From an uncultured Bacillota bacterium (GTDB lineage Bacteria > Bacillota > Clostridia > Peptostreptococcales > Anaerovoracaceae): 64,000 bases of DNA. Numbering within the stretch: position 1 is the stretch's first letter; each line of letters starts with the position of its first letter. A model generated the notes under the pieces. It saw only the letters and a list, made by a program, of their open reading frames with translations. It made no database searches and was not told the origin of the DNA. This document shows positions 38,932 through 58,280 of this stretch, one piece after another. The stretch is from positions 62,001 through 126,000 of the forward strand of contig CAKMKG010000032.1 in NCBI GenBank assembly GCA_927441425.1, given 5' to 3'. The translations under genes and the position numbers were made by a program.

Positions 38932-39606
38932 ATGAAAGACAATTCTTTGAGAAAAATAAGGTCAATCCTGGGCATACTGCTGATTCTATTGTCCATTGTA
39001 GGCTTGTTCCTTTGGGAATGGAAAGGAAGGGAAATAATTCTAATGGATGAAGTAATCGTTGCGCGGGAAGAAATCAAGAAGGGAACCAAAGTGAGCAGTG
39101 ATCTGTTTCACACAAAGGGCGTTCCGAAAACAAATCTGTTGGAAGGTGCACTCACTCCAGATGATATGGAGCTTTTACAGGGAAAAGAAACATCCCAGCT
39201 CATTGCAAAAAATAATCAAATCATTACGGCCTATTTCAGGGAGGATACTTTTTATCTGGGAAAGGAGGAATCCGTATTTGTGATCGATTCAAACTGGATT
39301 GCAATGAGAAGCAGTGCGCTAAGAAGAGGGGATATAGTAGACATTTATGGGAGCAATGGGATGGTACTATTGGGTACATTTCAGATCGCCTTTGTGAAGG
39401 ACGCATCTGAAAGAGAGGTACGGAATGTGGCGGAGGAAACAATGGGTAAGCCTGGAAATGAAATTCTGGAAAGAACCGACAGCACTTCCGTCATCGACCA
39501 TATCGAGATCATATCGACTTTTGATGAATACGAAAATATTTTGAACAGCGTCAATGGAACCACACCGACGGCGCTGATCATTGTACAGAGGGGGGGAGCG
39601 TATTGA
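38932..39606 (+). CDS. CpaB/RcpC-like pilus assembly protein with SAF domain
   Basis: 224 residues: N-terminal membrane helix (about 12-28), then a SAF-type region (EVIVAREEIKKGTKVSSDLF) and an RcpC-like stretch with ALRRGDIVDIYG. This matches CpaB/RcpC of Tad/Flp pilus systems, which acts outside the membrane on pilus assembly. Two starts compete, the ATGs at 38914 and 38932, each preceded by GGAGATTT; the second is used here. Its stop overlaps the TTG start of the interrupted CpaE-like gene, so the pilus genes formed one operon before the insertion. Confidence 0.8.
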   Translation: MKDNSLRKIRSILGILLILLSIVGLFLWEWKGREIILMDEVIVAREEIKKGTKVSSDLFHTKGVPKTNLLEGALTPDDMELLQGKETSQLIAKNNQIITAYFREDTFYLGKEESVFVIDSNWIAMRSSALRRGDIVDIYGSNGMVLLGTFQIAFVKDASEREVRNVAEETMGKPGNEILERTDSTSVIDHIEIISTFDEYENILNSVNGTTPTALIIVQRGGAY

Positions 39607-39652
39607 TTCATAATCTGTTTGCTTTTTTCGGAGCGGATCATAAGGTCGGAAC
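39603..39652 (+). pseudogene. 5' fragment of the interrupted CpaE/TadZ-like gene
   Basis: A TTG overlapping the upstream stop opens a frame reading MIHNLFAFFGADHKVGT. The element junction then interrupts it, and the frame runs into element DNA and stops after 25 codons. Joined to 60463 it continues as TMIAQSVAE, restoring the start and P-loop-like region of the CpaE-like protein (259 residues in all). Confidence 0.85.
39646..39652 (+). repeat. attL core TCGGAAC
   Basis: Seven-base direct repeat with attR. The rebuilt host site reads GGTCGGAACGACC, a perfect inverted repeat of GGTCG/CGACC around GAA, as expected for a tyrosine-recombinase core site. Confidence 0.8.
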
Positions 39653-39751
39653 ATTGGTTAAGCGGTTTTTACGACTTTAAACACCTTTCAATACATGGTT
39701 ATATCTTCGCATTTATAGGCATATTCTACTTCATACCTTTAAGCAGTATTT

Positions 39752-39791
39752 GTTGAATTATTATAAGTTAGTTGAATTATAATTGAATTAT
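39752..39791 (+). repeat. Left arm-type integrase sites
   Basis: GTTGAATTAT at 39752-39761 and 39771-39780, and ATTGAATTAT at 39782-39791, all in the same direction. The same decamer occurs twice at the right end of the element. Best read as arm-binding sites of the integrase N-terminal domain. Confidence 0.65.
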
Positions 39792-39835: not shown

Positions 39836-41053
39836 TTATTTTGCTCTTTTCAATACCACATCGGATATACATTTCGACGCTTCTTCATTGGCCTGTTTCA
39901 TCAATTCCGCATATACGTCAACTGTTGTGCTAACCTTTTCATGCCCCAGGGATTTCGATACTGTAACAATGTCAATACCCTTTGAAATTAATATGCTCGC
40001 ATAGGTATGCCGGAAAGCGTGGGGGTTTAGGTGGGGGAGGCCATTTTCCTTTGTGAAATCGTTCAGCCAGTGGTTAATGCTTGCTGGGTGCATTGGGTTG
40101 CCGGGGTTTCCTTCCTCCTGGACGAAGATCAATTTACTGTCTTTCCACTTGGGGTCACTCTGCCATCTATCGCCGTTTTTTAGCTTCTGTTCCGCATAAT
40201 AGGCCTTATATTGCGTGAAGAGCTGCATTACTTCATCGGGGAGCTTAATCATTCTAGATTTACCCGATTTGGTAGTGTCGAGGTATAGGCCATCTTTAGG
40301 GGTGTACTGTAGATTATTTGTGACTCTGATCTGTTTCTTCACGTAGTCTACATCATCCCATGTTAGGCCTAAAATTTCGCCCTTACGGCATCCAGTAATC
40401 AAGAGCAAATAGGTAAAGAGTTTCCACTTAATCGGCTGCTCATTCAAGCAATCAACGATCCTGTCGACCTCTTCGACCTGATACGGTTTGACGTTGGCCC
40501 TTTCCTTTTTAGGAGAGGTGGCTTTTTCGGCTGGGTTGTATGGGATCAGCATTTCCTTTTCGGCCTGTCCTAGAATAGCAGAAATCAAAGAATGATGCTG
40601 TTTTATTACTCCACCAGATAGCTTGCCGCCAGTTCTTTTATTTAAGCCGTCTTTAGATAATTCCTCATAGAGAAGGTTCAAGTGTTGCGGCCTTATGTCA
40701 GAAATTTTAATATGACCAATGCCATCCTTGATTCTACCGATCAGAGCATCATAACGGTTCAAGGTGCTTTTTTTAACTCCTGCGCGCTCTTTTAGTTTCA
40801 GGACATAATCAGCGTACTGAGCAAAGTTTTGCTTGCTGTCTGGAGCAGTTCCTTCCTTACATTGCCTTTCATATATAATAGCCTGTTTGCTTGCCTCTTT
40901 TATTGCCCTCGCTTCTGTCCAACCCTCCGGCACTTCAAAGGTAGTGGAGAAAGGCTTAAGCTGCTTGCCGGAAGAATCCCTTCCCCGGTGTACCCTTATT
41001 GAAAACGATATCAATTCTCCGCTTTTATTTCTGCGTTCCTGAATGTTCGCCAT
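39836..41053 (-). CDS. int: Tyrosine site-specific integrase
   Basis: 405 residues: an N-terminal AP2-like arm-binding domain (1-60), SAM-like core-binding domain (about 75-175), and catalytic domain with Arg223 in TGCRKGE, His345 and Arg348 in HAFRH, His371 in GHEKVSTT and nucleophile Tyr381 in VDVYAEL. It lies just inside the left end and reads toward it, as usual for Int of low-GC phages and PICIs. It would catalyse integration at the CpaE-like target and excision together with the excisionase-like protein. Confidence 0.95.
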   Translation of the reverse strand: MANIQERRNKSGELISFSIRVHRGRDSSGKQLKPFSTTFEVPEGWTEARAIKEASKQAIIYERQCKEGTAPDSKQNFAQYADYVLKLKERAGVKKSTLNRYDALIGRIKDGIGHIKISDIRPQHLNLLYEELSKDGLNKRTGGKLSGGVIKQHHSLISAILGQAEKEMLIPYNPAEKATSPKKERANVKPYQVEEVDRIVDCLNEQPIKWKLFTYLLLITGCRKGEILGLTWDDVDYVKKQIRVTNNLQYTPKDGLYLDTTKSGKSRMIKLPDEVMQLFTQYKAYYAEQKLKNGDRWQSDPKWKDSKLIFVQEEGNPGNPMHPASINHWLNDFTKENGLPHLNPHAFRHTYASILISKGIDIVTVSKSLGHEKVSTTVDVYAELMKQANEEASKCISDVVLKRAK

Positions 41054-41131
41054 TTCTCTGTTCCTCCTTAAATTCTTTCAGTCGGGTTGCTAGCTGTGAG
41101 TCGTTGTCTTGCTGTCTAGGCGTCCAACTGC

Positions 41132-42064
41132 TCATTTATTTTTATATTTCTTCTGGGATATAAGCCATTTTATATATTCTTCTTCACTCATTTTTTCTTT
41201 TAGATCATCAGAGGTTATCATAAATGCTTTTAGATGTATTTCTGCCGCTTCTTGCTTTCGTAAGTCTCTTGTAAGTGTGCGCCTATATAACGCATTATAG
41301 GTACGTTTATATTCCTGGTATATGGGGTTTTGGCTTTCTCTCTCTAATTGTTTTTTGTACTTCATCGCTTCTTTACATGTTTTATCTGTATATTCGGGGC
41401 TTAGTCCATTGCAGTATTGCTCATTTGCCCTTTGGGGGACAAATATCTTTCCGCAATGCTGGCATTTTTTTATTATGTTTTCGCTTCTAAATATATGATC
41501 CAATGTTGCAAGAGGAACGTCAATTATATGCGCACAATTATAAACAATAGGCTTTTGCCCCTCGCTTATATAGTATAAAAAAATTCTGTCTAATTCATTA
41601 TTGCTTATAGGTGAATAATTAAGTCCATCGGAAAAAAAACCACTATGCAACATGTCCGATCTCGACATGCTCATATATTCATCACTGAAAAGAACCTTAC
41701 ATATTGCCCCATAACATTCAGATGTACAATACTCTTTGTGTTCAGTCAAATAATTAATTAGATTGGCCATATGAAAGTATTGCAATTCTTTGTGTGCTAC
41801 ACCAATCCAACCCTTAGTGCTTTCTACCTTTTCTACTCGTTGTTTTCTCTTTTCTACAAATGCCATAAAACAATTTAGCTGATTACATATTTCAAATTCT
41901 TCTCTTTTTTCATCTATTAAATCAGTATTTATCTCTTCCAAGAAATGAAGCGTAGGCATTGCCTCTTTTAAAATGCTCTTTTTTGATTTTGAAGCAAATA
42001 AAAAACCAATACTTTCTTCATTCTCTTTAAAATTCATTGAAAATGGAAGGTTTAATGCATACAT
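41132..42064 (-). CDS. DUF6076-like protein with C-terminal zinc-finger motif
   Basis: 310 residues. The N-terminal two thirds is helical without a recognised motif. The C-terminal part carries KKCQHCGKIFVPQR and, after 12 more residues, a further cysteine pair region (YCNG...TDKTCKE), a zinc-ribbon pattern. Proteins of this layout (DUF6076) are frequent beside integrases in Clostridia; function unknown. GAAGGG nine bases upstream selects the ATG at 42064 over an earlier open start. AT-rich codon use sets it apart from the flanking chromosome. Confidence 0.7.
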   Translation of the reverse strand: MYALNLPFSMNFKENEESIGFLFASKSKKSILKEAMPTLHFLEEINTDLIDEKREEFEICNQLNCFMAFVEKRKQRVEKVESTKGWIGVAHKELQYFHMANLINYLTEHKEYCTSECYGAICKVLFSDEYMSMSRSDMLHSGFFSDGLNYSPISNNELDRIFLYYISEGQKPIVYNCAHIIDVPLATLDHIFRSENIIKKCQHCGKIFVPQRANEQYCNGLSPEYTDKTCKEAMKYKKQLERESQNPIYQEYKRTYNALYRRTLTRDLRKQEAAEIHLKAFMITSDDLKEKMSEEEYIKWLISQKKYKNK

Positions 42065-42150
42065 TTGTTGTTTCCCTTCAAATACAGTAAAATAAAAACA
42101 ATTAAACACTTGTTGTTTCCTTGATTATATTTTAGAATAAAAACAACAAT
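42063..42150. promoter_or_regulatory. Divergent regulatory region with TTGTTGTTT repeats
   Basis: TTGTTGTTTCC occurs at about 42065 and 42110 and the inverted AAACAACAA at 42141-42149. Together they lie between the minus-strand DUF6076-like gene and the HTH gene. They are candidate operators of the element's genetic switch. Confidence 0.45.
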
Positions 42151-42184
42151 AATGCAACAACTATTTATTGAAAGGAGAAAAAAC

Positions 42185-42361
42185 ATGGCAAACCAGGAAA
42201 TCAGAGAATTGGCAAACAAGAGCGGCATTAGACTTTGGCGGATCGCAGACAGGATGGGGATCAATGACGGTAATTTATCCCGAAGGCTAAGACGCGAACT
42301 CCCCGAAGCAGAAAAAGAAAGAGTTGTCAAGATCATCGAAGAATTGAAAAAGGAGGCGTAA
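42185..42361 (+). CDS. Small HTH DNA-binding protein
   Basis: 58 residues. The core reads ELANKSGIRLWRIADRMGINDGNLSRRLR, a helix-turn-helix like those of phage Cro/repressor-type proteins, followed by a charged helix. GAAAGGAG precedes the ATG at 42185. It is first in the rightward early operon, next to the repeat-rich control region, so a switch regulator is likely. Confidence 0.75.
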   Translation: MANQEIRELANKSGIRLWRIADRMGINDGNLSRRLRRELPEAEKERVVKIIEELKKEA

Positions 42362-42364
42362 TGG

Positions 42365-42619
42365 ATGGAACAACTGATGAATACCATTAACGGAACGTAT
42401 GAGAGAGCCGTTAAGGAAGGGTTAGGCATATCAAAGAACCTCCTCCGCAGCTTGGTCAAGTCTAACACGATCCCCTATGTGCGAGTGGGGAACAATCAAG
42501 TACTTATTAATTTTTCGGTGCTGCAAAACTTTCTTATTACTGGTACGGCTCAACCTCCAGAGCTAAAAGCAAACGGAGAAATAAGGCGGATACCGGAAAG
42601 ATTGACGGCGGCACGATGA
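42365..42619 (+). CDS. Excisionase-like DNA-binding protein
   Basis: 84 residues with the MerR-like winged-helix pattern of excisionases: GLGISKNLLRSLVKSNTIPYVRVGNNQVLINFSVLQNFL, seen here from about residue 20. A basic C-terminal tail follows. Located right after the HTH gene, it is the likely directionality factor for Int or an early regulator. Confidence 0.7.
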   Translation: MEQLMNTINGTYERAVKEGLGISKNLLRSLVKSNTIPYVRVGNNQVLINFSVLQNFLITGTAQPPELKANGEIRRIPERLTAAR

Positions 42620-42661
42620 AGGGGGGCGGCAAATGAATTATAAGCAGACAGAAACGGGGTG

Positions 42662-43396
42662 ATGGGCTTGCAAGGTTACATTAAATTATATAGGAAGCTA
42701 CTTGAAAACCCTGTATTCCAGAATTCCAGCTTATTGAAAGTATTTATCTGGTGCCTGTTGAAAGCCACTCATAAAGAGCGTATCCAGGTTGTTGGATTAC
42801 AAAAAGTTAAGTTGTTACCGGGCCAATTCGTTTATGGAAGAAATAAGGCAGCGGAAGAATTGAAGCTAAAACCATCAACGGCGCACAAATACATGCTGTG
42901 GTTAAAAGATGATGGAATTTTGAACATCCACGGTAACAACAGATTTTCTCTTGTAACCGTTGCAAATTGGGAGTTGTACCAAGTAAAGGATGATGAAAAT
43001 AACAGCAAAAGTGACAGCAAAATAACAGCAACGGAACAGCAACGTGACACAAACAAGAATGTAAAGAATATAAAGAATAATATATATGTCGATTTCCTTG
43101 AACAAATATGGAAACTGTACCCGATAAAAAAGGGTAAGGCCAGCATAAACAATACCCAAATAAAAAAACTCTACCATATTGGTTTAGAAGAAATTACAAG
43201 AGCAATCGACCGCTATAAAAAAGAAATTGAAACCAAGCAAACGGAAAAACAGTTCATCAAACACGGAAGTACGTTCTTCAATAGTGGCTATGTGGATTAC
43301 TTAGATGCTAACTACCAGCCAGAAGAAGCGGACAAGCCGAAGACAAGTACAAAAGAAGTAATTATCCCCGAGTGGTATAAGGAAGGTGACAAATGA
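42662..43396 (+). CDS. DnaD-type replication initiator
   Basis: 244 residues. The N-terminal winged helix (GYIKLYRKLLENPVF, GQFVYGRNKAAEELKLKPST, LKDDGILNIHG) is typical of phage and plasmid DnaD-like initiators. A low-complexity basic linker follows and then a C-terminal DnaD-like helical domain. Its ATG overlaps the stop of a nine-codon upstream open frame (42633-42662) in TGATG, suggesting translational coupling. It overlaps the helicase start by four bases. Confidence 0.75.
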   Translation: MGLQGYIKLYRKLLENPVFQNSSLLKVFIWCLLKATHKERIQVVGLQKVKLLPGQFVYGRNKAAEELKLKPSTAHKYMLWLKDDGILNIHGNNRFSLVTVANWELYQVKDDENNSKSDSKITATEQQRDTNKNVKNIKNNIYVDFLEQIWKLYPIKKGKASINNTQIKKLYHIGLEEITRAIDRYKKEIETKQTEKQFIKHGSTFFNSGYVDYLDANYQPEEADKPKTSTKEVIIPEWYKEGDK

Positions 43397-44562
43397 AAGA
43401 CTGTGAGCAAATACTACTATCTGCATGGATCAGTGGAGATAACAAGGAACATATTAAAGAATTCGACCATTTTACATATTTTCCTGAACTGTTTGAGGCA
43501 ATCCGCAAGATGAGGCCGAAGGACATAAACATCTTAACAGTATCAAAGACAGCCAGAATTAAATTATCCGAACTCGCGAAGTTTACTTCCGAGTATATGC
43601 CGGTCATGTATGATCCATACTACCGCACCAAAAAAGAAGAAAAAATAAAGGCTATGCTGCTTGACCTCGCCAAAGACCCGAACAGCATAACCCAAGAGTC
43701 GGTTGAAGCGGTCTACAAAGAGTTTGACACACTCCATGCCGTAAGAGTAAAGGAACCTACCGACCTATGCGAATCTTACAAGAATGAGCTTGAAAAGCGC
43801 AAAACGGTTGAGCCTTTAAAATACGGACTGCCTACGTTGGATTTTATCACAGGCGGAATCAGAAGACAAGAACTAACCACGATAGCAGCAAGGCCGAGCG
43901 TTGGTAAGACCGCAATTTCCCTTCAAATTGCTTTCAATCTTGCACTTAAAAAACATAAGGTTTTGTTCTTCCCGCTGGAAATGGCACCATTTCAGCTCAT
44001 GGAAAGAATTGCATGCAGGGAAACAAATATCAAACATGAGAAGCTGAAAAATCCTTCCAAGATGGACGAGAAAGATAAGGAAATGCTGAAAAACTTTTTC
44101 GAGATATACGGCCCGGTTGTGAATCCATATCTGTATATTATCGACGGGGTTTCACGCCTTGCGGAGATCAAGCGGTATATTGAACACTACAAGCCGGAAG
44201 TTGTGTTTATAGATCAACTGACACAACTTGACGAAAACAAGAAATTTAATACGATCAGAGAACAGTTTTCTTATATGACCCAAAATCTAAAGGCATTTAC
44301 AATGTCAATGGACATTCCCATCATTCTGCTTTGCCAGATAAGCAGATCAGGCGAGAACAAGGCGCCTACATTTACTGACCTAAAGGAGTCGGGAAGTATT
44401 GAAGAGACCAGCGACAACATAATCGCCCTACATCAAACGGACGAAGCTATTGGGGATTGCACCCCGACAGACTTAATAATCCTAAAGCAAAGAAACGGCA
44501 AGCGTGATGTAAAAATCCCGTGCATGTACCGCAACGAGAAGTTTATTTTTCAAGAAGTTTAA
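43393..44562 (+). CDS. DnaB-type replicative helicase
   Basis: 389 residues: a shortened N-terminal domain and a RecA-like core with GLPTLDFITGGIRRQELTTIAARPSVG leading into GKTAISL (Walker A), FFPLEMAPFQLMERI, VVFIDQLTQL (Walker B) and CQISRSGENKAPTFTDLKESGSIEE. It is much like the element-encoded DnaB helicases of prophages and is expected to work with the preceding initiator. Confidence 0.9.
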   Translation: MKDCEQILLSAWISGDNKEHIKEFDHFTYFPELFEAIRKMRPKDINILTVSKTARIKLSELAKFTSEYMPVMYDPYYRTKKEEKIKAMLLDLAKDPNSITQESVEAVYKEFDTLHAVRVKEPTDLCESYKNELEKRKTVEPLKYGLPTLDFITGGIRRQELTTIAARPSVGKTAISLQIAFNLALKKHKVLFFPLEMAPFQLMERIACRETNIKHEKLKNPSKMDEKDKEMLKNFFEIYGPVVNPYLYIIDGVSRLAEIKRYIEHYKPEVVFIDQLTQLDENKKFNTIREQFSYMTQNLKAFTMSMDIPIILLCQISRSGENKAPTFTDLKESGSIEETSDNIIALHQTDEAIGDCTPTDLIILKQRNGKRDVKIPCMYRNEKFIFQEV

Positions 44563-44583
44563 AAAAAGGAGAGGGGAACTGAT

Positions 44584-44880
44584 ATGAAAGCTAAAACGCA
44601 GGACGGGCTTACCGTTATACCCTGCCAGGCCATTAGTAGCCAGTACAACGATCAATATAAAGCATGGGAAATCAATTGTATTAGCCCGTTCACGGGCAAG
44701 GAAATCAAGTTGCTTGGAACATATTCAGACGAGGCACAGCACCGAAACGTCTTCTCCGAGCTACAGGGTTGGCTTGAAGATAGGAGCCGGAAGTATCGGA
44801 CGTATTATATGCCACCGGATATTCAGGCCATTACAGAGACAGGCATATCATTTACAGACCTAACGCTTGAAATGGAATAA
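44584..44880 (+). CDS. Hypothetical protein of the replication module (98 aa)
   Basis: 98 residues, beta-rich then helical (ISSQYNDQYKAWEINCISPFTG). GGAGAGGGG lies upstream. No recognised family. Same operon as the helicase. Confidence 0.6.
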   Translation: MKAKTQDGLTVIPCQAISSQYNDQYKAWEINCISPFTGKEIKLLGTYSDEAQHRNVFSELQGWLEDRSRKYRTYYMPPDIQAITETGISFTDLTLEME

Positions 44881-44945
44881 CTTGATATCCGATAAAAACG
44901 AACCAACCGTTACAGTAAATAAAAGTATTTGAAAGGTGTAAAAAA

Positions 44946-45470
44946 ATGTTAAAAGACAAAATTATGAATTTCATGATCATAGAGGGAGTAAGCACAAAGG
45001 ATATTGAAAAGGCATTGCGGGAAATCGAACTTGAATCAACTCCATTTACTGACATTCCAAAAGATGAACAGATCGATTATTTTATCGGACGGCTAAGCGC
45101 CAGCGACCATGAGGCTGAAATTGCAGATATGCTATGCACGTGCACGGCTTATAACGACAAAACGTTTGAAATGATAGCAAATAATCCGGCGTATCAGAAA
45201 TACTGTGAGCACGACAGCAGCTCACTAAAAGAGTTGTTAAATGGCGGTATTTTAAGTGCAGACGATCCATTTGAAGAACAAGATGTTTGGGATCTGATTT
45301 TTAATGTGTTGGGAATCAATATGATTTTTAAATGCTTTGACGATGATCAATTCAGATGGCATTACCTTGAAAAAATAATCAGAATCACCTCATGCAATGA
45401 AAAAGAATTAAGAAAAGCCGCAGATGAGATTTTGAAAGAGGCAGAGATTGAATACGGTGTAAAAGAATAA
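44946..45470 (+). CDS. Hypothetical protein (174 aa)
   Basis: Acidic, mainly helical protein of 174 residues with AAAGGTG upstream of the ATG. No cysteine cluster or nucleotide motif. Not recognised. Confidence 0.6.
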   Translation: MLKDKIMNFMIIEGVSTKDIEKALREIELESTPFTDIPKDEQIDYFIGRLSASDHEAEIADMLCTCTAYNDKTFEMIANNPAYQKYCEHDSSSLKELLNGGILSADDPFEEQDVWDLIFNVLGINMIFKCFDDDQFRWHYLEKIIRITSCNEKELRKAADEILKEAEIEYGVKE

Positions 45471-45494
45471 TCCCGGAATGAAAATCTAGGGGGA

Positions 45495-45556
45495 GGGGGT
45501 TGCCTAATCAGCGTAAAACCAAGCAAGTATTAATCCTCTTGTTAGGTTTCCCCCTT
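45495..45556 (+). other. G-rich / C-rich inverted repeat between operon parts
   Basis: GGGGG-ttg-CCTAA (from 45495) faces TTAGG-ttt-CCCCC (to 45555). The long internal loop and lack of a clean T run make this either a weak terminator or a structured leader of the next small gene. Confidence 0.35.
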
Positions 45557-45615
45557 TATATAGGGTTGGCGTAGCTGCCCCTGGTTGAAATTGACATAAG
45601 AAAGGAGATGAATAC

Positions 45616-45795
45616 ATGAGCGGAAAAGAACTGATAGAGGCACTCGCTACCGGCGTTATCCTTGCATCAGATGATATATCGAGTATTGAGAAAACACCTG
45701 CGGAAGAAATCAAGGAAGCGCTTATCGACAGATTTAAACAGCAATATACGTTAGTTCTTACCAGGGAGCAGGAAAGGAGAAAGGGTATTGGATAA
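45616..45795 (+). CDS. Small acidic protein upstream of terS (59 aa)
   Basis: 59 codons with AAAGGAG upstream. The product is a two-helix protein (GKELIEALATGVILAS, PAEEIKEALIDRFKQQYTLVL). It overlaps the terminase start by eight bases, so the two are translationally linked. Function unknown. Confidence 0.6.
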   Translation: MSGKELIEALATGVILASDDISSIEKTPAEEIKEALIDRFKQQYTLVLTREQERRKGIG

Positions 45796-46348
45796 TTCAG
45801 AATTGAAAAATGAAAAAGCGGCTACTTTAACGATAAAGCAAGAGTTATTTGTAGATGAATACATGACAAACGGCTTCAATGCCACACAAGCCGCTATTAA
45901 AGCGGGATATAGCGAAGCAACAGCACGATCACAGGGGCAAAGACTGTTGACAAATGTTGACGTGAAAGAAGAAATCAATAAGCGTTGTCAGGATATAACC
46001 GCCGAGTTTCCATTGCTGCGTAAAAAGATTGTCGAGAAGCTTCAACGGGTGGCATTTAGTGACATAGGGGACTATTTGGAATACAAAACAGTTAAGACAG
46101 AGGTTGCCAACATAGACGGTAAGCCTATTTTGGGATTCCGGGCAGTGGTTGATTTAAAAGACTCAGACCAGGTTGATACCAGCTTGATATCAGAAGTACA
46201 GGAAACGCCGTCCGGCCTTAAGTTTAAGCGTATGGATCCGGTAAAGGCATTGGAGCTACTGGCTAAATTTACCGGGTTGGATAATGCTGACCGCGAAGAA
46301 ATCCTTGAACGGATAGAGCACCTTGAAGAAGTAGCAGGGAAAAAATAA
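45788..46348 (+). CDS. terS: Phage terminase small subunit
   Basis: 186 residues. The N-terminal helix-turn-helix reads LTIKQELFVDEYMTNGFNATQAAIKAGYSEATARSQG, key part KAGYSEATARSQGQRLL, the signature of the Terminase_2 (XtmA-like) family. The C-terminal part is helical with a Glu-rich tail for oligomerisation. TTG start with AGGAAAGGAG upstream. TerS recognises packaging sites. A lone terS without large subunit or capsid genes is the hallmark of Gram-positive PICIs, which use it to divert a helper phage's packaging machine. Confidence 0.9.
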   Translation: MDNSELKNEKAATLTIKQELFVDEYMTNGFNATQAAIKAGYSEATARSQGQRLLTNVDVKEEINKRCQDITAEFPLLRKKIVEKLQRVAFSDIGDYLEYKTVKTEVANIDGKPILGFRAVVDLKDSDQVDTSLISEVQETPSGLKFKRMDPVKALELLAKFTGLDNADREEILERIEHLEEVAGKK

Positions 46349-47025: not shown

Positions 47026-47199
47026 ATGAAGAGTATCGAAAGTAGATTATCAAAATTAGAACTAAGGACAGTATCTGAGAGCGGTCCTTTACCCATAGAA
47101 ACAGTTATAAGAGAAGCCGATAACCCTGAATTTATGGAACGGCATAAAGACAATCTAACCGTTAAGTATTTAAAGTCTTTCGAAGGTGAGGAATTCTAA
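47026..47199 (+). CDS. Small paralogue 1 of the KLE family (57 aa)
   Basis: 57 codons, AAAGGA upstream. It starts MKSIESRLSKLELRT and ends in KYLKSFEGEEF. The N-terminus matches those of the next two genes (MKxIxxRLxKLE), a short coiled-coil-like helix. Unknown function. Confidence 0.6.
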   Translation: MKSIESRLSKLELRTVSESGPLPIETVIREADNPEFMERHKDNLTVKYLKSFEGEEF

Positions 47200-47200
47200 T

Positions 47201-47494
47201 ATGAAGAACATTGAGAATAGACTGGAAAAGCTAGAATCTACTATTAAACCCACCGGAGAGCAAGAAGATCTTTCTCTTTTGACAGACGAAGAACTTGACC
47301 TTGAGCTTGCTGGTTTGATTTATAACAATCTCCAAGAGGATGATTGTATTTATCCTGATGTCGGGCAGGAAGTTAAGGCAATGAGCCGGGAAGAATTTAT
47401 AAGTATGTATATCTCAATGGACAAATGTGAAGAACAACGTTTATATCGTGATCCGCTCTATGAATGGGCGAGGAAGGAAGGAATAGAAGTATGA
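47201..47494 (+). CDS. Small paralogue 2 of the KLE family (97 aa)
   Basis: 97 residues from the ATG at 47201 (GTGAGG upstream). N-terminus MKNIENRLEKLEST, then an acidic domain with LTDEELDLELAGLIYNNL and EEFISMYISMDKCEEQRLY. Its stop overlaps the start of paralogue 3 in ATGA. Confidence 0.65.
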   Translation: MKNIENRLEKLESTIKPTGEQEDLSLLTDEELDLELAGLIYNNLQEDDCIYPDVGQEVKAMSREEFISMYISMDKCEEQRLYRDPLYEWARKEGIEV

Positions 47495-47790
47495 AAAACA
47501 TTGATAACCGATTGGTAAAGTTAGAAATGGCGCTGGGAAAAGAAAACGATCTGGATTTGGAGTTAAGTGCCATGACACCAGAAGAAAGAGAACACAGAAT
47601 AGCAGAATTGATTTATAAAGGGTTGATTGACACCGACCCAAAAGTAAAGCTAATGACCGAAGCGGATTTTATTGAGCTTTATTTGTCATCCGGTCCAAGG
47701 GAAAGAGCCACCCTTTGCGGATATGATTTCACAAAAGGCAGTATAGAAGACCAACTTCTCGATAGCCTCAAGGCTAGATACGAGGTGTAG
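47491..47790 (+). CDS. Small paralogue 3 of the KLE family (99 aa)
   Basis: 99 residues, N-terminus MKNIDNRLVKLEMALG, with an acidic body aligned to paralogue 2 (RIAELIYKGLI, EADFIELYLSSGPRERATL). The radical SAM gene starts two bases after its stop, so the three small genes and the enzyme form a translationally coupled unit. Confidence 0.65.
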   Translation: MKNIDNRLVKLEMALGKENDLDLELSAMTPEEREHRIAELIYKGLIDTDPKVKLMTEADFIELYLSSGPRERATLCGYDFTKGSIEDQLLDSLKARYEV

Positions 47791-47792
47791 GA

Positions 47793-49241
47793 ATGAAGAT
47801 ACTATTTGTAACAGATAAATGCCACTGTCTATACCGCGCGCAAATGACAACAAACCTTCAGGCAATACTTGGCGAAAGGCACGATGTGGTATTTTTCAAG
47901 GCCACCAGCAAGAAGTACCTTGAACGGATAAAGACCGAGAACCCAGATATCATATATCTGCTCATTGGAGGAACTCAACATAATGAGATTGCAGAACAAT
48001 ATAAGGGCACAAACACCGTGATTGTTTCGGATATGGCTGGCAATCTTGATATCCAGATAAATGGAGAGCCGGAACTAGTCTTTCCTCTTCTGGTTGAAGC
48101 AATTGAAACAGGAGCAGACCTTTCAACCGTACCGGGCATTACATACGAACATAAAACCAAGAAAGCTGAGAAATGGGATATAAACCAAGTTGTGAGCAAT
48201 GAAAGCTTTGTGACTTTCTCAAGCAGAGGCTGCAAGGGTAAGTGCTCCTTTTGTTCAATAAGGAATTATCAAGGCTCATTAAGGCTCAGGGAGATCCCGG
48301 TTATTGTTGAAGATATAATACGGTTCGGAAAATATGACGATTTCCACGGGGACTTTTACTTCTCTGATCCGTCTTTCGATAGCAACCCAAAGAAGCGGAT
48401 GAAAGAGCTGTTGAAAACGCTGATTAAGGAATTCTGCGTATATACATATCAGGCTAACTTTCGGCCGGACTTTCATAAAATGGTCGACGATGAAATGATT
48501 CAACTTTTATTTGATTCAGGGCTCACAAGAGCATTCATTGGTGTAGAGTCCGGAAATGAATCTGATCTGCAGCTATACAATAAGGGCACAACCGTCGAAG
48601 ATGCACAAAAGACTATCGACCTGTTTAAAAACCTGGACTGCGCTGTCGATGCAGGGTTTATAATGTTCAACCCGTTTTCGGATTTTGATAGATTGAGGCA
48701 AAACATTGCTTTCTTGAAAAAGAATCATCTGGCCACATTTGAAACATTAACAAGACAGCTCTCAATAGCCCCAGCAGCACCAATAGAGCAGATTACCATA
48801 GAGGCAGGGCTGCTGATCTCTGGGCAATCTTGCTACTTATTTAAGGACGAGAAAATGCTACTGCTTACGCAAACAATCAAACTAATAGAAAAAGGGTTGC
48901 ATCAAAATGCGCTTGCACAATACAGGGATTTAGGTCTGAAAGCCGTTAAAAGACTTAAACGCGAAATATTGTTCAGAGATAGCATAGAAAAATATAACAA
49001 GCTGATTGAGTATGACCAGCGGCTTACCGAGATCGTTGAAAGGGAGTCGGACCGGCTTTGCGAGTGGTTTCTTAATCTGCTTGATCTGATGGAACAGAAA
49101 CGGCCTTACATCGAGTTCTTTCAGATGACCAACAACTACATCACGACCGAACATATAAAAAGTGTCGTTAAGGAATATCACGCCATTTCGAAAGAAATGT
49201 ATGGAGCATATGGGGGGGCGACTTTTTTAAAGCGGATATAG
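47793..49241 (+). CDS. B12-type radical SAM protein
   Basis: 482 residues. The N-terminal Rossmann-like domain (MKILFVTDKC to about 110) is in the place of a cobalamin-binding domain but lacks the DxHxxG histidine, so base-off B12 binding of the usual kind is doubtful. The radical SAM core has Cys147, Cys151 and Cys154 in CKGKCSFC, then FYFSDPSFD and FIGVESGNE. A long helical C-terminal part follows. The enzyme's substrate is unknown. Its tight coupling to three small acidic proteins raises the option that they are substrates or partners. Confidence 0.85.
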   Translation: MKILFVTDKCHCLYRAQMTTNLQAILGERHDVVFFKATSKKYLERIKTENPDIIYLLIGGTQHNEIAEQYKGTNTVIVSDMAGNLDIQINGEPELVFPLLVEAIETGADLSTVPGITYEHKTKKAEKWDINQVVSNESFVTFSSRGCKGKCSFCSIRNYQGSLRLREIPVIVEDIIRFGKYDDFHGDFYFSDPSFDSNPKKRMKELLKTLIKEFCVYTYQANFRPDFHKMVDDEMIQLLFDSGLTRAFIGVESGNESDLQLYNKGTTVEDAQKTIDLFKNLDCAVDAGFIMFNPFSDFDRLRQNIAFLKKNHLATFETLTRQLSIAPAAPIEQITIEAGLLISGQSCYLFKDEKMLLLTQTIKLIEKGLHQNALAQYRDLGLKAVKRLKREILFRDSIEKYNKLIEYDQRLTEIVERESDRLCEWFLNLLDLMEQKRPYIEFFQMTNNYITTEHIKSVVKEYHAISKEMYGAYGGATFLKRI

Positions 49242-49953: not shown

Positions 49954-51933
49954 ATGGAATCGTTAAAGGGTTTTTCGTCTGAATACCAGTTTACGCAATT
50001 TGAAGAAGATTATCTTACTAGAACTTACGGAAAAATAACAAATCGCCCGGATTTGGCTTTGACAGAGTTGGTTGCAAATGCATGGGACGGTGGGGCTGAG
50101 AGTGTTTCTATTAATATATCTCCCATAAGTACAGTTGAGCAAATGACCATTTCTATCCATGATGATGGAGTTGGCATGACGGAACAGGAATTCTACAATC
50201 GTTGGATGACTTTGGCCTATAATCGGCTCAGACATCAAGGAGAGTATGCGGAGATGCCTCCGGAACGTATTGATCAAAAGAGAAGGGCTTACGGAAGGAA
50301 TGGCATTGGAAGGCATAGTATGCTTTGCTTTGGCAATACATATACAGTCGAAACATTGAAAAATGGTTTATGCAATGTTTTTACATTAGAGCAAAGTGGC
50401 GGAAAAACAGCGTTAAAAATAACATCGCATAACTCATATTCCAAAGATGGACACGGTACTATTATTTCGGCTACAATAAATAAAAATTATCCGAATGTTT
50501 ATGAATTGAAAACAGTTTTATCAGCGAGATTTATTTTTGATCCACAATTTAAGATATCCATTAATGGTACCCTTATAGGGATTGATCAGTTTGATGGTTT
50601 TTTAAAAAGAGAAGAAGCTACAATCTTAGATGATATAAATATTACAATGACTGCTTTATCTTCGAATAAAACTGCTAAAGACTCACAGCAACATGGCGTT
50701 GCCTTTTGGGTTAATAAAAGGCTTGTAGGCGAACCCTCATGGCATCTTAATAAAAAATACTTAGCCGACGGAAGAACAACCACGGCAAAACAGTATACAA
50801 TTATTGTTCAAACGAACGATTTATTATCAGATATTAATCCTGATTGGACTGCTTTTAAGGAAAATGATAGGATGGATGCCGTTTATAAAGTTGTGGAGTC
50901 ATTCACAAATGATGTGCTCAAAGGGGCAAATGCTATGAAAAATGAAGACTTTAAACATAACATAATACGAAAGTATGCAAAAGAAATACAGAACTTGGAG
51001 TACACATCAAGACGTAATATTTTGCAATTGGTTGATAAAGTTGTTGATGAGATTCCCGAACTATCAAAAAGTTTTTTAGATGTTACGATATCAAAATTGC
51101 TTGATATAAATAAATCTATGAATAAGAGGGCCTTGCTTGAAAAGATCTTCATATTAAATGAAAAAGACGCTGAGGCTTTAAATAAAGTCTTGGATGATTG
51201 GGATGTTTCGGATTTAGAATACGTCTTAGACGAAGTTGATCGTAGAATAACTGCCATTGAGGCTATTCGAAGATTTTCAACAATGGAAGGTGCTGACGAA
51301 CTCCATGTTTTACATCCTTTAGTATTAGAAGCAAAATGGCTTTTTGGCGCTGAGTTTGATTCTTCTTTCTATGTTTCTAACAAAAGATTATCAACAATAC
51401 TAAAAAAGCATCTAAAAAAACCTGAAAATGTAAAAAGCCTAGTAGTTCCAATGAAACGTCCAGATATAATAGTATTTGATGATGGAAGTCTTATGGGTTA
51501 TGCGACAGAGGATCATAATCCCGATACAGGTCTTGTTGAGTATAAGAGACTGCTATTGATAGAATTAAAATGTGGCGGAAAAGAAATAACTACAAAAGAA
51601 ATGAATCAAACTGAAGAATATATAAATGAACTATTTTTTTCTAATGCTTTTAATAGTTATGTTGAAATTAATGCATTTACCGTAGGTACTTCTGTAAGTG
51701 CACGAATGAGTAGAGGAAAAGAATTAAAGGATAGTGGGAATATAACATTTGGAAAAATAACAGCAGCTTCATACGAGCAATTAGTAGCTACAGCTGAAAG
51801 AAGGTTGTTTGGATTGAAAGAACAATTATCTCAAAGGTATGAAAGTCTAGATGAGGATAATTTATTAAAGAAAGCTTTAAGCCCAGAAACGGCACAAGCT
51901 GCAATGGCTTATATATTAGAAAAAGACAAATAG
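49954..51933 (+). CDS. GHKL ATPase fused to a PD-(D/E)xK nuclease-like domain
   Basis: 659 residues. N-terminal GHKL (HSP90/MORC-type) ATP-binding domain: N-box ELVANAWD (38-45), DDGVGM (70-75), RNGIGRHS (115-122). The middle part is helical. The C-terminal domain has the restriction-nuclease-fold pattern RPDIIVFDDG with Asp504, then LLLIELKCGGKEI with Glu537 and Lys539. ATP-gated nucleases of this build are typical of anti-phage defence proteins. The longer open frame from 49795 overlaps a hairpin; family alignment favours the ATG at 49954, with only a weak AGGT upstream. Very AT-rich compared with the chromosome, so acquired. Confidence 0.85.
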   Translation: MESLKGFSSEYQFTQFEEDYLTRTYGKITNRPDLALTELVANAWDGGAESVSINISPISTVEQMTISIHDDGVGMTEQEFYNRWMTLAYNRLRHQGEYAEMPPERIDQKRRAYGRNGIGRHSMLCFGNTYTVETLKNGLCNVFTLEQSGGKTALKITSHNSYSKDGHGTIISATINKNYPNVYELKTVLSARFIFDPQFKISINGTLIGIDQFDGFLKREEATILDDINITMTALSSNKTAKDSQQHGVAFWVNKRLVGEPSWHLNKKYLADGRTTTAKQYTIIVQTNDLLSDINPDWTAFKENDRMDAVYKVVESFTNDVLKGANAMKNEDFKHNIIRKYAKEIQNLEYTSRRNILQLVDKVVDEIPELSKSFLDVTISKLLDINKSMNKRALLEKIFILNEKDAEALNKVLDDWDVSDLEYVLDEVDRRITAIEAIRRFSTMEGADELHVLHPLVLEAKWLFGAEFDSSFYVSNKRLSTILKKHLKKPENVKSLVVPMKRPDIIVFDDGSLMGYATEDHNPDTGLVEYKRLLLIELKCGGKEITTKEMNQTEEYINELFFSNAFNSYVEINAFTVGTSVSARMSRGKELKDSGNITFGKITAASYEQLVATAERRLFGLKEQLSQRYESLDEDNLLKKALSPETAQAAMAYILEKDK

Positions 51934-52061: not shown

Positions 52062-52385
52062 TTGGAAACAAAAGATATTATTCTTGAAATACTTAAAAAA
52101 CTAGAAAAGTCATTAGACGATGATAATTTTGATCAACAACTGATAAGCGCTGAAACCTTTGGAATTACAGTAAATAGAAGAAATTATATTCTACAAATAA
52201 TGGAAGATGCAGGGTTGATCAAAGGAGTAAAGGCCCTGTCGGCAAATGATAGAGCTCCGTATGGTATAATGTTGAAAAATCTAAAAATAACTCTACAGGG
52301 CATAATGTATCTGGATGAGAATACAACAACAGCCAAGATTATAAAAGCCGCAAAAATATTAAAAGATACAATCCCCATGATATAA
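52062..52385 (+). CDS. YjcQ-family phage protein
   Basis: 107 residues, small winged-helix protein of the YjcQ type (DIILEILKKLEKSLDD, INxRNYILQIMEDAGLIKG-like segment, LKNLKITLQGIMYLDEN). TTG start with AAGGGGAGAG upstream. Common in Firmicutes prophages, role unknown, possibly regulatory. Confidence 0.8.
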   Translation: METKDIILEILKKLEKSLDDDNFDQQLISAETFGITVNRRNYILQIMEDAGLIKGVKALSANDRAPYGIMLKNLKITLQGIMYLDENTTTAKIIKAAKILKDTIPMI

Positions 52386-53116: not shown

Positions 53117-53944
53117 ATGTCTGATTTTGATGGCTTAACCGAAGAAGAACAAATTGAAAAGATGAGAGAGTGGTTTTATGAAAACTATGAGGATCCGGCT
53201 GAAAGAACGCCATATGAGGGGGAATATATTTGGATATATGGCGGACCATATGATGCATATGAAGAGTTACTTGATAAATTCGAGGGGCAGGTTGATGAGC
53301 GATTAATTCTTGATTTGGCCGACGACCTTAATTCTGAATGCACTGATTGGACTTCGACTAGTGACGAAGGCTTTTATGATGAATATTTTAATAATGATCC
53401 CATTGAAGCATTAAGACGATCATTAGAAAAATTTCGAAGCTTATCAAGTCAGCAAATACCGGACCAGCTTAAAACAAATTTCTACGCTTTGCTTTTCATT
53501 AATTGTATTACAATTATGGAAGTGTTTTTATCAGACACTTTTATAAATGAGATATTAATAGATCAAAATAAAAAAGTTAATTATTTACGCTCAGATCCAT
53601 ATTTCAAAGAAAGGTCATTAAAATATAGCGATCTTTATGATGAATATGAGAAAATAGATGATCTGATTAAATACCGCTTATCTAACATAGTATGGCATAA
53701 GCTAAATACTGTCAGAGAATTATATAAAGATGCTCTTGGCGTTGATATTAAGGACTTTATTAGATTAATAGAGCCAAAAGTTGTGTTGCGTCATCATATT
53801 GCCCATCGAAATGGAAAAAACAAAGAGGGTGAAGACATTCTTGTGGATCTAGCCCAACTGAATGAACTTGCTGATCTAGTTGACGAATTAGCTAGTTATA
53901 TTGAAGGGGTGCTACGTCCAATCGTATACCCGACCGAATTTTAA
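53117..53944 (+). CDS. HEPN-like protein
   Basis: 275 residues. The N-terminal part has the recurring segment WFYENYEDPAERTPYEGEYI leading to WIYGGPYDAYEELLDKF. The C-terminal half is all-helical with LRHHIAHRNGKN, which fits the R-x4-6-H motif of HEPN RNases, preceded by helices with FINCITIMEVFLSDTF. HEPN proteins cleave RNA in toxin and defence systems. AAAGGAGG before the ATG. It follows the GHKL-nuclease, YjcQ and membrane genes in the same direction. Confidence 0.75.
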   Translation: MSDFDGLTEEEQIEKMREWFYENYEDPAERTPYEGEYIWIYGGPYDAYEELLDKFEGQVDERLILDLADDLNSECTDWTSTSDEGFYDEYFNNDPIEALRRSLEKFRSLSSQQIPDQLKTNFYALLFINCITIMEVFLSDTFINEILIDQNKKVNYLRSDPYFKERSLKYSDLYDEYEKIDDLIKYRLSNIVWHKLNTVRELYKDALGVDIKDFIRLIEPKVVLRHHIAHRNGKNKEGEDILVDLAQLNELADLVDELASYIEGVLRPIVYPTEF

Positions 53945-54244: not shown

Positions 54245-55612
54245 TTATTGAACTACTGTAAACTTACTTTCAGCTATCTTATTATCAAAGGCATAGGCGG
54301 TAACAGTGTAAGTCCCGGCTTGGTATTTCTTAGCGTCAAACTGACCGTAATAGATGCCTGCCTCAATCAATGTTGTAGTTGTGCCTTTTTCAAAAGTATA
54401 ACTGTAGTTAATTTCCCCGAAATCGTAACCCTTATAGGAGTAAATTACAGTCATGGGCACTTCCATTGTTTCAGTCAACTGCTCATGCTTCAACCAGATT
54501 TCAGTGCCTATTATGGATAAGACTGGCGTTTTTAAGAAGCTTACGGCGTATTCCCTGTCGGGATAATCAATCCAATCCTGGCTATTCCCTGAGAAGAATT
54601 TTATATCATTAACCGTACAGCTATTTATTAAAGCCTGTTCTTTTGACATATCAACATACAGCTCCAAAGTGTCTACATCGAGGATTGTGTTGTTCGCCTT
54701 TATCTCAATTTTATATTGTTTAACATTGAGATTGTCGGTTACGAGATCCTTAATTGATATTGAAGTTGATATATCCGTACTTTCTGTACTTGCAAGAAGC
54801 TTGATATATTTTGTTTCGTTCTCAATGACTTTCTTCTCTACGGTTGGAGAAATAAGGATCTGGACTGGAATGCTTTTATCTGTGTCAATAAGACCGTATT
54901 TGAGGGTAAATTTTATAAACATTTCAGAATCAAGATTTCTTGCGAATTTATCAGTATCGATCAATTTGCCATCGTCCATCCGGAAAAGAGATAGTTCGCT
55001 TACAGTTAATTCGCCATCATATGAAGAATCGGAATTTAGAGCGTTGTATAATAATATGGCCGCATTGCCTCGGTTTATATCGCCTCCGGAAGCCACCACA
55101 TTGTCTGTAAGCCCATGTTTTGTAGCTATATCAATATAATTTGTCGGCCAGCTTAAAGAGGGATTTAATTCTGATTCAAGCCCAAGAGTCCTTACCAACA
55201 TAGTAACTGCTTGTCCGTAGGTGATTGTATTGCCCGGCATAGCGTTACCTTTACCATCACCAGTGATTATTCCTTTCTCGGCACAATAACCAAAGTATGG
55301 AATAGACCAGCTATACCCTTTCATGTCTTTAAAATCAGTCTCCGTATAGCCTACCAAAGTGGAATCGGGAACTCCCAAAAATCTTGTAATCATTGCTGAA
55401 AACTCTGCCCTTGTTAAGCCTTTCAAAGGTTGATAGGTGCCGTCAGGATTACCTCCGATAATTCCCATGTTGGAAAGTGTTTCAACGGCAGTTTGATATG
55501 GAGTGCCGGCAACATCGGAATATGATGTAGCATACGTTAAACTTGTCCCACAGACTAGCATGATTAAAAGTAAAAATAAAACTGTCAAATGGCGTAATGA
55601 CTTAATTTTCAT
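54245..55612 (-). CDS. Secreted SLH-domain protein carried by the element (455 aa)
   Basis: Signal peptide (hydrophobic core about 9-26, cleavage near TYATS), then three SLH repeats: YSDVAGTPYQTAVETLSN to ITRFLG, FKDMKGYSWSIPYFGYCAEKG to LVRTLG, and YIDIATKHGLTDN to LYNALN. About 250 residues of beta-rich sequence without a known domain follow. Expected to bind wall polymer and display the C-terminal part. AAGGAG before the ATG at 55612. It is on the minus strand between plus-strand cargo genes, i.e. an independent cassette. Confidence 0.85.
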   Translation of the reverse strand: MKIKSLRHLTVLFLLLIMLVCGTSLTYATSYSDVAGTPYQTAVETLSNMGIIGGNPDGTYQPLKGLTRAEFSAMITRFLGVPDSTLVGYTETDFKDMKGYSWSIPYFGYCAEKGIITGDGKGNAMPGNTITYGQAVTMLVRTLGLESELNPSLSWPTNYIDIATKHGLTDNVVASGGDINRGNAAILLYNALNSDSSYDGELTVSELSLFRMDDGKLIDTDKFARNLDSEMFIKFTLKYGLIDTDKSIPVQILISPTVEKKVIENETKYIKLLASTESTDISTSISIKDLVTDNLNVKQYKIEIKANNTILDVDTLELYVDMSKEQALINSCTVNDIKFFSGNSQDWIDYPDREYAVSFLKTPVLSIIGTEIWLKHEQLTETMEVPMTVIYSYKGYDFGEINYSYTFEKGTTTTLIEAGIYYGQFDAKKYQAGTYTVTAYAFDNKIAESKFTVVQ

Positions 55613-56876: not shown

Positions 56877-57050
56877 TTGGGCCTTGACAATCTTCCAGAC
56901 ATACTGACAGTAAAACAATTAGCTGAATTTTTACAGGTTAGCGAACTCACTATTAAAAGGGCAATAAAAACTGGAGAACTAGAAGCATTTAAAGCGGGAC
57001 GAGACTGGCGAATTGAAAGAGAAAGCGTTTTGAAGTGGGTAAAGAAATAA
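56877..57050 (+). CDS. Excisionase-family helix-turn-helix protein
   Basis: 57 residues from a TTG with AAAGGAGGGGG upstream. Sequence ILTVKQLAEFLQVSELTIKRAIKTGEL followed by FKAGRDWRIERESVLKWVKK is the classic HTH_17 / excisionase DNA-binding domain. It could regulate the adjacent small-gene cassette; it is far from the integrase. Confidence 0.85.
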   Translation: MGLDNLPDILTVKQLAEFLQVSELTIKRAIKTGELEAFKAGRDWRIERESVLKWVKK

Positions 57051-57698: not shown

Positions 57699-57836
57699 AT
57701 GAAAACTAAAAAAGTGACGGTTCCGCTTGTTACTCACCGCGATGCCGCCGGAAACATAACGCACGATTACATAGAAATTCCCGTAACGGTGTACGAGCAG
57801 TGGTTAAAGAAATGCTATGACCTAAACGGCAATTAG
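57699..57836 (+). CDS. Tandem small protein, copy 1 (45 aa)
   Basis: 45 codons, GGAGAAAGG upstream. Product: TVPLVTHRDAAGNITHDYIE, then IPVTVYEQWLKKCYDLNGN. It is a close relative of the next gene; a two-strand plus helix mini-domain. Unknown role. Confidence 0.6.
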   Translation: MKTKKVTVPLVTHRDAAGNITHDYIEIPVTVYEQWLKKCYDLNGN

Positions 57837-57848
57837 GAAGGAGTATCC

Positions 57849-58022
57849 ATGGATAATAATACAGTAAAACAAAGAAGAACAGACGAAGCGAAGACAATCA
57901 AATTTCCGGCTGTTGCGCATTGTGACTCAGAGGGAAATGTCACCTATGATTATATAGAGATTCCAGTCTCCGCATACGAGCAGTGGCTTAAAAGATGCTA
58001 CGAGCTAAGTGGGATTTATTGA
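57849..58022 (+). CDS. Tandem small protein, copy 2 (57 aa)
   Basis: 57 codons, AAGGAG upstream. It has an extended basic N-terminus, then FPAVAHCDSEGNVTYDYIE and IPVSAYEQWLKRCYELSGI, aligned with copy 1 over 40 residues. Confidence 0.6.
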   Translation: MDNNTVKQRRTDEAKTIKFPAVAHCDSEGNVTYDYIEIPVSAYEQWLKRCYELSGIY

Positions 58023-58055
58023 GAGAATAAGCAGTATCAGAACGCACAATCGAGG

Positions 58056-58084
58056 GATACCCGTTTAATATCGGGTATCTTTTC
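58056..58084 (+). terminator. Terminator heading repeat unit 2
   Basis: Perfect GATACCCG (58056-58063) / CGGGTATC (58072-58079) stem, then TTTTCTC. It ends the copy 1-copy 2 transcript. Confidence 0.75.
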
Positions 58085-58133
58085 TCTGTACGTTAAAACC
58101 ACAATAATAAAAATTAAAATGGAGGAAGATTCT

Positions 58134-58280
58134 ATGAACGAAAAGTCATAAAAGGAAAAAAGGGTTAAGGTTCCGGTAGTGGCAAAGCTTGATTCTTCAG
58201 GAAAGTTTACAGTTACATATGCGGGCATATCGACCAAGAAAGGCGAGGCGTGGATAAAAAGATGCTACGATCTTTCATAG
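58134..58280 (+). pseudogene. Tandem small protein, copy 3, broken by an early stop
   Basis: ATG with GGAGGA upstream opens MNEKS, then TAA at codon 6. The frame continues as VKVPVVAKLDSSGKFTVTY then a diverged GISTKKGEAWIKRCYDLS, clearly the same family. No good internal start lies after the stop, so it is likely dead. Confidence 0.65.

Follow-up and report, generated by a model that had tools for sequence, protein, structure and literature searches.

What kind of mobile element carries an integrase, a divergent control region, replication genes and a terminase small subunit, with no recognisable gene for a virus particle? This question is raised by a 64,000-nucleotide stretch (hereafter the window; contig CAKMKG010000032.1, positions 62,001 to 126,000) from an uncultured bacterium of the Bacillota family Anaerovoracaceae, in which a foreign DNA element occupies positions 39653-60462. 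Based on its ends, gene order and relatives, we propose that this element is a phage satellite resembling the phage-inducible chromosomal islands (PICIs), a reading to which we assign a probability of about 0.65. Probably it is carried in particles made by another phage, since it brings genes for integration, control and replication and a single packaging gene, with no recognisable particle genes. The original prediction had described a PICI-like gene set at 39836-46348; this interval captures the phage-like block and falls short of the whole element.

Borders and insertion site

The element comprises 20,810 bp between two identical 7 bp cores, TCGGAAC (attL core, 39646-39652; attR core, 60456-60462), with a GC content of 0.34-0.41 inside and about 0.41-0.46 in the flanks. 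It splits a forward-strand gene that we call TadZ/CpaE-like, a name given by eye from its neighbours (in Pfam the 3′ part matched only ArsA_ATPase, at 0.001). The reading frame starts at 39603, stops after DHKVGT and picks up at 60463; the 5′ remnant (39603-39680) reads GADHKVGT before passing into element DNA, and the remainder (60463-61192) is severed from the start and the P-loop-like stretch. Homologues in congeners read DHKVGTTM, and in the closest congener (G770, 76% identical) the uninterrupted site reads GGTCGGAACGACCATG, which corresponds to the predicted empty site. An open homologue of 265-296 amino acids (aa) is present in all eight other genomes of the genus that were searched, and the intact target motif lies in an open frame at 15 of 18 loci checked, the other three (L083, L084 and L086, from the wider family) not matching the residue pattern used. 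A 10-mer, GTTGAATTAT, occurs five times in the 64 kb on both strands, four of these no more than about 130 bp from a core. The copies at the element ends, at 39752 and 39771 on the left (39752-39780) and at 60364 and 60375 on the right (60364-60384), are putative integrase arm-type sites. We regard the borders as fixed because the 7 bp core, the four arm-type sites at the ends and the intact site in the congener coincide.

As read from the sequence, the point of integration is the TCGGAAC core, which lies within P-loop-like codons of a Tad-pilus-type gene; the insertion breaks this gene, and excision would restore it. A literature search on prophages with Tad/Flp genes returned no title concerning such an insertion site. 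Sixteen tRNA genes are clustered at 21211-23269 of the window, and the element is not inserted there.

A lone small terminase and the search for virion genes

When 29 element proteins and the 3′ portion of the interrupted gene were compared with Pfam and PHROGs, the sole packaging gene found was that of the terminase small subunit (TerS; 186 aa; 45788-46348, forward strand); none of these element proteins was recognised as a large terminase (TerL, gene terL) or as a portal, capsid, tail or lysis protein. TerS is of the SPP1/SF6 type (PF03592) both by profile, with a Terminase_2 match at 1.7e-35 (123.1 bits vs a curated cut-off of 26.1) and a match to PDB 3zqp at 1e-28, and by predicted fold. 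Its AlphaFold model (pLDDT 75.5, pTM 0.42) matches the full-length SPP1-like TerS 3zqq at 1.7e-5 and the SF6 DNA-binding domains 2cmp and 4zc3 at 2-3e-3. SPP1 and SF6 package DNA by headful from a pac site, and because the TerS of the element is of this type, we infer headful packaging for the element as well. Unlike these small terminases, with which it shares sequence type and predicted fold, it has no partner terL in the element.

A terS without terL is unusual among terS-bearing viral contigs. We found 501 viral loci with a related terS, and 65 of the best 80 contigs carry terL according to a hidden Markov model (HMM). When 12 of the 15 contigs without an HMM match were viewed (all but L129, L175 and L188), 11 had an unassigned open reading frame (ORF) of 465-597 aa no more than 1.4 kb after terS, L169 being the exception. 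The same HMM, built from seven terL-like genes including one on contig C27 of the same genome, found no match in six frames of the element at E ≤ 10; it is blind to the TerL_ATPase class, found on contig C6 of this genome, which was covered by Pfam only. A set of 1,717 comparison proteins of at least 80 aa was also taken from the 80 viral contigs with terS, from 11 regions in other genomes of the order and from three in the own genome. It produced 107 tblastn matches to the element, all of them to terS (87), the replication initiator (8), int (5), dnaB (5), the radical-SAM gene (1) or YjcQ (1). A laxer limit added three genes: the GHKL-ATPase gene, through a MutL-like C2 protein; the SLH gene, through an SLH protein of L169; and an ORF at 44946-45470, through a match over 55 residues (E 0.001) to a 278 aa L193 protein encoded about 6 kb after the terS of that contig. 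Controls show that the reach of this comparison is limited: proteins of the viral contigs matched four of 55 ORFs in the C27 region (terL, portal, major head and one more), these ORFs including chromosomal neighbours, and 12 of 50 ORFs in the C6 region. Pattern scans of the viral contigs for DnaB and TerS, a method that sees close relatives only, found none.

The kelch-repeat and SLH-domain proteins of the element match phage 'virion', 'tail' and 'endolysin' PHROGs via their repeat domains, and we read both as cargo. With these and the fn3 matches so judged, the element has no recognised structural or lytic genes, as is known for Gram-positive PICIs, and profile scans, six-frame HMM and comparison proteins all uphold the earlier claim that terL, portal, capsid, tail and lysis genes are lacking across 20.8 kb.

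Integration, control and replication genes

A tyrosine integrase (Int; 405 aa; 39836-41053, reverse strand; PF00589 Phage_integrase 2.3e-30, phrog_1 2.2e-68) lies at the left end, followed on the same strand by a DUF6076 zinc-ribbon-like protein (310 aa; 41132-42064; PF19553 1.7e-16) in the position of the PICI repressors Stl/Rpr. Between the latter and the forward-strand genes is a divergent, putatively operator-like control region (42061-42146) with two 41 bp repeats, 76% identical and 45 bp apart. The forward-strand genes begin with a small helix-turn-helix (HTH) protein in a Cro-like position (59 aa; 42182-42361; phrog_17740 3.2e-14) and an excisionase-like protein (84 aa; 42365-42619), for which the call is weak (HTH_17 3.3e-4; 21.3 bits vs the Pfam cut-off of 27). 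They continue with a DnaD-like helicase loader or replication initiator (244 aa; 42662-43396; phrog_2514 1.1e-31) and a DnaB-type replicative helicase (389 aa; 43393-44562; PF03796 DnaB_C 1e-46), whose helicase part also gives a match to a primase/helicase PHROG. No primase family was called among the element proteins in Pfam or PHROGs. A class-wide search with DnaB gave mostly matches in frames of about 450 aa, which we took to be chromosomal DnaB. A second excisionase-type HTH_17 protein (57 aa; 56877-57050, forward strand; PF12728 1.3e-13) is a stronger match than the first. Profiles place the integrase, HTH, DnaD, DnaB and terS genes where the original prediction had put them, the excisionase-like gene being the weak call. 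Promoter and terminator scans did no better than on shuffled sequence.

From its position, the DUF6076 protein would be the regulator of the switch. An alignment of 13 homologues has five invariant columns, four of them Cys. The AlphaFold model (mean pLDDT 57) is confident in the C-terminal part only and has no PDB structure match at E ≤ 0.001; there was also no convincing PDB sequence match, no match among 50,697 phage records, and no paper found under the name DUF6076. The family occurs in 17 of 296 genomes of the bacterial family, own genome included. In the remaining 16 (14 loci viewed, G633 and G034 being left out), an integrase adjoins DUF6076 on the same strand at six loci (G657, G160, G690, G670, G139 and G746; in G657 with one small gene in between), and the other eight have no adjoining same-strand integrase. 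The first divergent gene of G657 belongs to the same PHROG as the small HTH protein of the window and occupies the same place. The G690 locus (L271, G690:C11) is a small element with int, DUF6076 and, by eye, two replication-type genes, in which no end repeats of at least 13 bp were found.

Comparison with known satellites

Gram-positive PICIs, according to the available text of PMC6092414, are ordered int, divergent master repressor (Stl/Rpr), xis, rep/pri and sometimes terS, encode a primase homologue and a replication initiator but no structural or lytic genes, and are typically around 15 kb, with no size cut-off stated. The same text describes attachment sites never occupied by prophages, genes unique to PICIs, and helper-dependent induction, replication, packaging and interference, with PICIs best known in cocci and Gram-negatives; the accessible part of PMC13376191 gives 7-20 kb for satellites. 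The element resembles Gram-positive PICIs and Staphylococcus aureus pathogenicity islands (SaPIs), so far as PMC6092414 could be drawn upon, in having a terminal int that shares its strand with the regulator, a divergent switch, a specific attachment (att) site and, in order, xis-like, replication, terS and accessory genes without structural or lytic genes. Gene order and strands fit the PICI pattern, with DUF6076 in the repressor position and a weak xis call. The attachment site is intact in eight of eight other genomes of the genus, few occupied sites being available for comparison. A radical-SAM gene of the element and DUF6076 are both absent from the 50,697 phage records, yet DUF6076 lies beside head and tail genes in G657. 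Unlike SaPIs, the element has no recognised SaPI interference gene. Capsid-encoding satellites (cfPICIs) carry their own head genes; the element is likewise compact and satellite-like, but is without head genes by Pfam, PHROGs and the comparison proteins.

A putative PICI of Clostridium novyi sensu lato, as far as the available text of PMC8473940 describes it, shares with the element a clostridial host, int with terS, and anti-phage-type accessory genes. It differs in lying mostly in rnpB, in having a SaPI-type repressor, an rppC homologue and a minor capsid gene, and in its cargo of Cas14a/CRISPR and restriction-modification genes. The expectation that a clostridial satellite would extend the known range was therefore partly anticipated by this report (PMC8473940, in its available part), although DnaD/DnaB, the DUF6076 switch and the radical-SAM gene set the present element apart.

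A sister element with the same radical-SAM gene

The best evidence, from comparative sequence, for a system rather than wreckage comes from a second genome of the genus, in which an element of 18,854 bp (G160:C4) lies between 50 bp perfect repeats that by eye resemble a tRNA 3′ end. A 467 aa integrase and DUF6076 are divergent to genes of 63 aa and 79 aa, giving the int-DUF6076-HTH-xis layout of the window, and both elements have a lone terS, a radical-SAM gene downstream and no late gene found. The G160 element differs in its Int, its tRNA-like site, a P4-type primase (714 aa) in place of DnaD/DnaB, a 119 aa TerS of another family (phrog_2538, 1.3e-10) and cargo that includes an Abi-type gene; it also has a sigma-like gene. 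Its 492 aa radical-SAM protein is 43% identical to that of the window over its length, and among the called genes its own comes directly after terS; in the window the gene starts 1.4 kb downstream, with five small ORFs between. In the G160 element the terL HMM had no match, ten proteins were scanned against PHROGs, and the comparison proteins gave six matches (four to int, one to the Abi-type gene and one to a small ORF).

Close full-length relatives of this radical-SAM protein occur in only two of the 296 family genomes, those of the window and G160, with three more distant partial matches; a scan of 252 genomes of the order again found only these two, plus seven more partial ones. There was no match in the 50,697 phage records, none in the viral contigs with two peptide patterns, and 35 plasmid records all below 60% identity. 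A literature search on radical-SAM enzymes in phage satellites listed a single paper, to judge by its title a review.

A less complete third case is an element of the same order (G134:C4, L068, 185000-204999), with int, a repressor, a DnaD-like gene and terS, behind which come helicase-like, methyltransferase-like and other genes. A search for the ends of this element did not locate them. It has no terL HMM match, and none of ten proteins scanned belongs to a terL or structural family, one having a marginal spanin match (0.0095). The helicase- and methyltransferase-like genes resemble a defence system on a lone-terS element. Together, G160 and G134 strengthen the original view of a PICI-like layout with a lone terS.

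It is possible, though doubtful, that these elements represent an undescribed satellite lineage in the bacterial family, defined by a novel switch of DUF6076 and small HTH protein and a conserved radical-SAM gene downstream of a lone terS. In such a lineage, replication and terS modules would be swapped freely, DnaD/DnaB with an SPP1-type TerS against a P4-type primase with another TerS. The radical-SAM enzyme might then modify a helper component chemically or make an anti-phage metabolite, a form of phage parasitism that is not known to us from any satellite.

Candidate helper regions

Two regions of the own genome encode a terL, and in neither was a TerS of the element's family found. On C6, a TerL_ATPase-type terL lies, by eye, within a long run of phage genes. 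C27 has a Terminase_3-type terL, recognised by the HMM that finds terL in 65 of 80 terS contigs, accompanied by genes for a TerS (phrog_2538), a portal, a head and a tape-measure protein. The C27 cluster (G000:C27:30803-46358; L053, L059) is compact, running terS-terL-portal-head-tape measure-tail with an integrase at its end, and no replication genes were noticed near it. A possible helper link through the TerS proteins of G160 and C27 was dropped: both match the same PHROG, yet they give no pairwise alignment, and we claim no link.

Weighing the alternatives

A number of observations weigh against a satellite origin. The DnaD loader and DnaB without a primase are unlike PICIs and SaPIs, and 20.8 kb exceeds the ~15 kb typical of PICIs (PMC6092414, available text); DUF6076 replaces Stl/Rpr, with no recognisable Stl homologue in the element. 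We therefore do not claim strict PICI membership and call the element PICI-like, since no primase and no Stl homologue were recognised, the size is above typical, and its dependence on a helper is a prediction. A pattern scan for DnaB across 84,980 species found no close relative, and the exact gene set was seen once. In this genome (assembly 89.97% complete), the only Terminase_2 TerS is the element's own, and the C27 terL region carries a different TerS type. G657, a 13.4 kb element with the switch layout of the window, DnaD-like and primase/helicase genes and a sigma-like gene, keeps major head and tape-measure genes; its Int is 42% identical to that of the window, and its ends bear the same arm-site word and perfect 33 bp repeats. 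The viral contig L122 joins related Int (40-48%), rep-like (33%, 1.6e-4) and DnaB (33%, 5.9e-26) genes to a terL (1.7e-79), and L123 has a related Int with a Terminase_2-type terS; window-type early modules therefore also occur in phages. G657 and L122 are the strongest evidence that the element is a remnant, and we do not explain them away. Such a cryptic prophage, descended from a temperate phage of this lineage in which deletion removed the late genes but spared int, the switch, the replication genes and terS, and in which cargo accumulated afterwards, is unlikely in our estimation. G657 matches the element in Int type, arm-site word and switch, which suggests that decay can leave the att sites intact here. 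The terS is placed as in a phage, ahead of the terL position, and in L123 and L169 int and terS again occur with no terL HMM match and with a shared tape-measure-like ORF. Yet the 20.8 kb hold no known late-gene fragment and the early ORFs are open, and in G160 a terS from a different family has been kept independently, without a terL match and with this radical-SAM gene downstream of it; that random deletion should have led twice to such a result seems improbable. No matching full prophage was found of which the element would be a plain deletion derivative, the outcome that the original prediction had named as its refutation, but given the G657 head and tape-measure genes and the L122 terL such a derivation retains some probability.

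A non-phage integrative element, similar to an integrative and mobilisable element (IME) or a defence or cargo island, whose terS would be a chance acquisition without use of phage particles, appears very unlikely. The right half of the element is mostly cargo, the closest Int relative found (L204, 54% identical) has no terL or terS HMM match in the 16.6 kb examined, and G690, with int and DUF6076, has no Terminase_2-type terS match, though the same HMM misses the G160 type. Pfam recognised no relaxase or conjugation family, the mark of IMEs and integrative and conjugative elements, among the called element proteins, however, and phage PHROGs were matched both by the DnaD-like loader and by DnaB. 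Moreover, terS follows replication genes in three elements (window, G160 and G134). The satellite reading is supported overall because the ends are precise, the congener site is intact, the gene order is PICI-like, six-frame searches turned up no trace of late genes, a terS without terL is unusual, and G160 and G134 provide parallels.

Proposed lifestyle

As a satellite, the element would be kept silent by DUF6076, perhaps with the small HTH protein, acting on the divergent promoters at the repeated operator-like sites, until a helper phage relieves repression. Int and the excisionase-like protein could then excise the element, restoring the pilus gene, while DnaD and DnaB would drive its replication. 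The TerS would mark element DNA and recruit the large terminase of the helper, leading to headful packaging in helper capsids. The radical-SAM, GHKL and HEPN-like genes are candidates for interference or helper-modifying functions, and the SLH and kelch proteins would serve as cargo for the host. A well-delimited satellite-like case is added to a lineage in which only one earlier putative clostridial PICI was found in the literature (PMC8473940, available part). The other element of this genus has the switch layout and the enzyme in common with it yet differs in replication and terS genes, a pattern that makes testable the roles of DUF6076 as a satellite repressor and of the radical-SAM enzyme in phage parasitism.

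Accessory and cargo genes

The 482 aa radical-SAM protein (47793-49241, forward strand; PF04055 3.8e-12) lies near B12-binding families, the nearest among NCBIfam B12/radical-SAM models, all scoring far below cut-off. Immediately upstream are three small paralogues of 57, 97 and 99 aa (47026-47790, forward strand; by eye) with an RLxKLE-like start, which are possible partners or substrates. A 659 aa, restriction-enzyme-like GHKL-ATPase protein (49954-51933, forward strand; HATPase_c_3 8.7e-17) matches the BbrUII/HgiDII family at 8.3e-28, under the cut-off, and PADLOC REase_II at 3.9e-13, and is a possible interference gene. It is followed on the same strand by a YjcQ-family protein (52062-52385; PF09639 2.7e-25) and a 275 aa protein (53117-53944; phrog_17908) with the motif RHHIAHRNG, which we take by eye to be HEPN-like, with no HEPN profile match. 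The cargo proteins, both secreted by eye, are the SLH-domain protein (54245-55612, reverse strand; PF00395 2.2e-18) and the kelch-repeat/fn3 protein (58592-59944, forward strand; PF01344 4.4e-84). At 57699-58280 there are, by eye, three small tandem paralogues, the third of which (from 58134) is interrupted by a stop codon at 58149-58151.

Other relatives

Int relatives were found at 39 genome loci, 37 of them without terL and terS by HMM, L225 having a clear terL with a rep-like gene and L242 a marginal terL, and in four viral contigs, including L122 with terL and L123 with terS. Given this mixed gene content, Int is no marker for the satellite. Most of the named assemblies that hold its closest relatives are clostridial, and an integrase match on C2 was set aside, as by eye it sits among ordinary chromosomal genes. 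The tape-measure-like ORFs of L169 and L123 (649 and 695 aa, named by eye) are homologous at E 1e-85, and these contigs are either trimmed prophages or satellites retaining a tape measure; L169 was dropped as a sister satellite on account of this ORF. L169 additionally encodes an SLH-domain surface protein. In G243:C11 (L065-L067), a prophage block from int to terL appears twice, 40,160 bases apart, reflecting either prophages in tandem or a circular form as rendered by the assembly.

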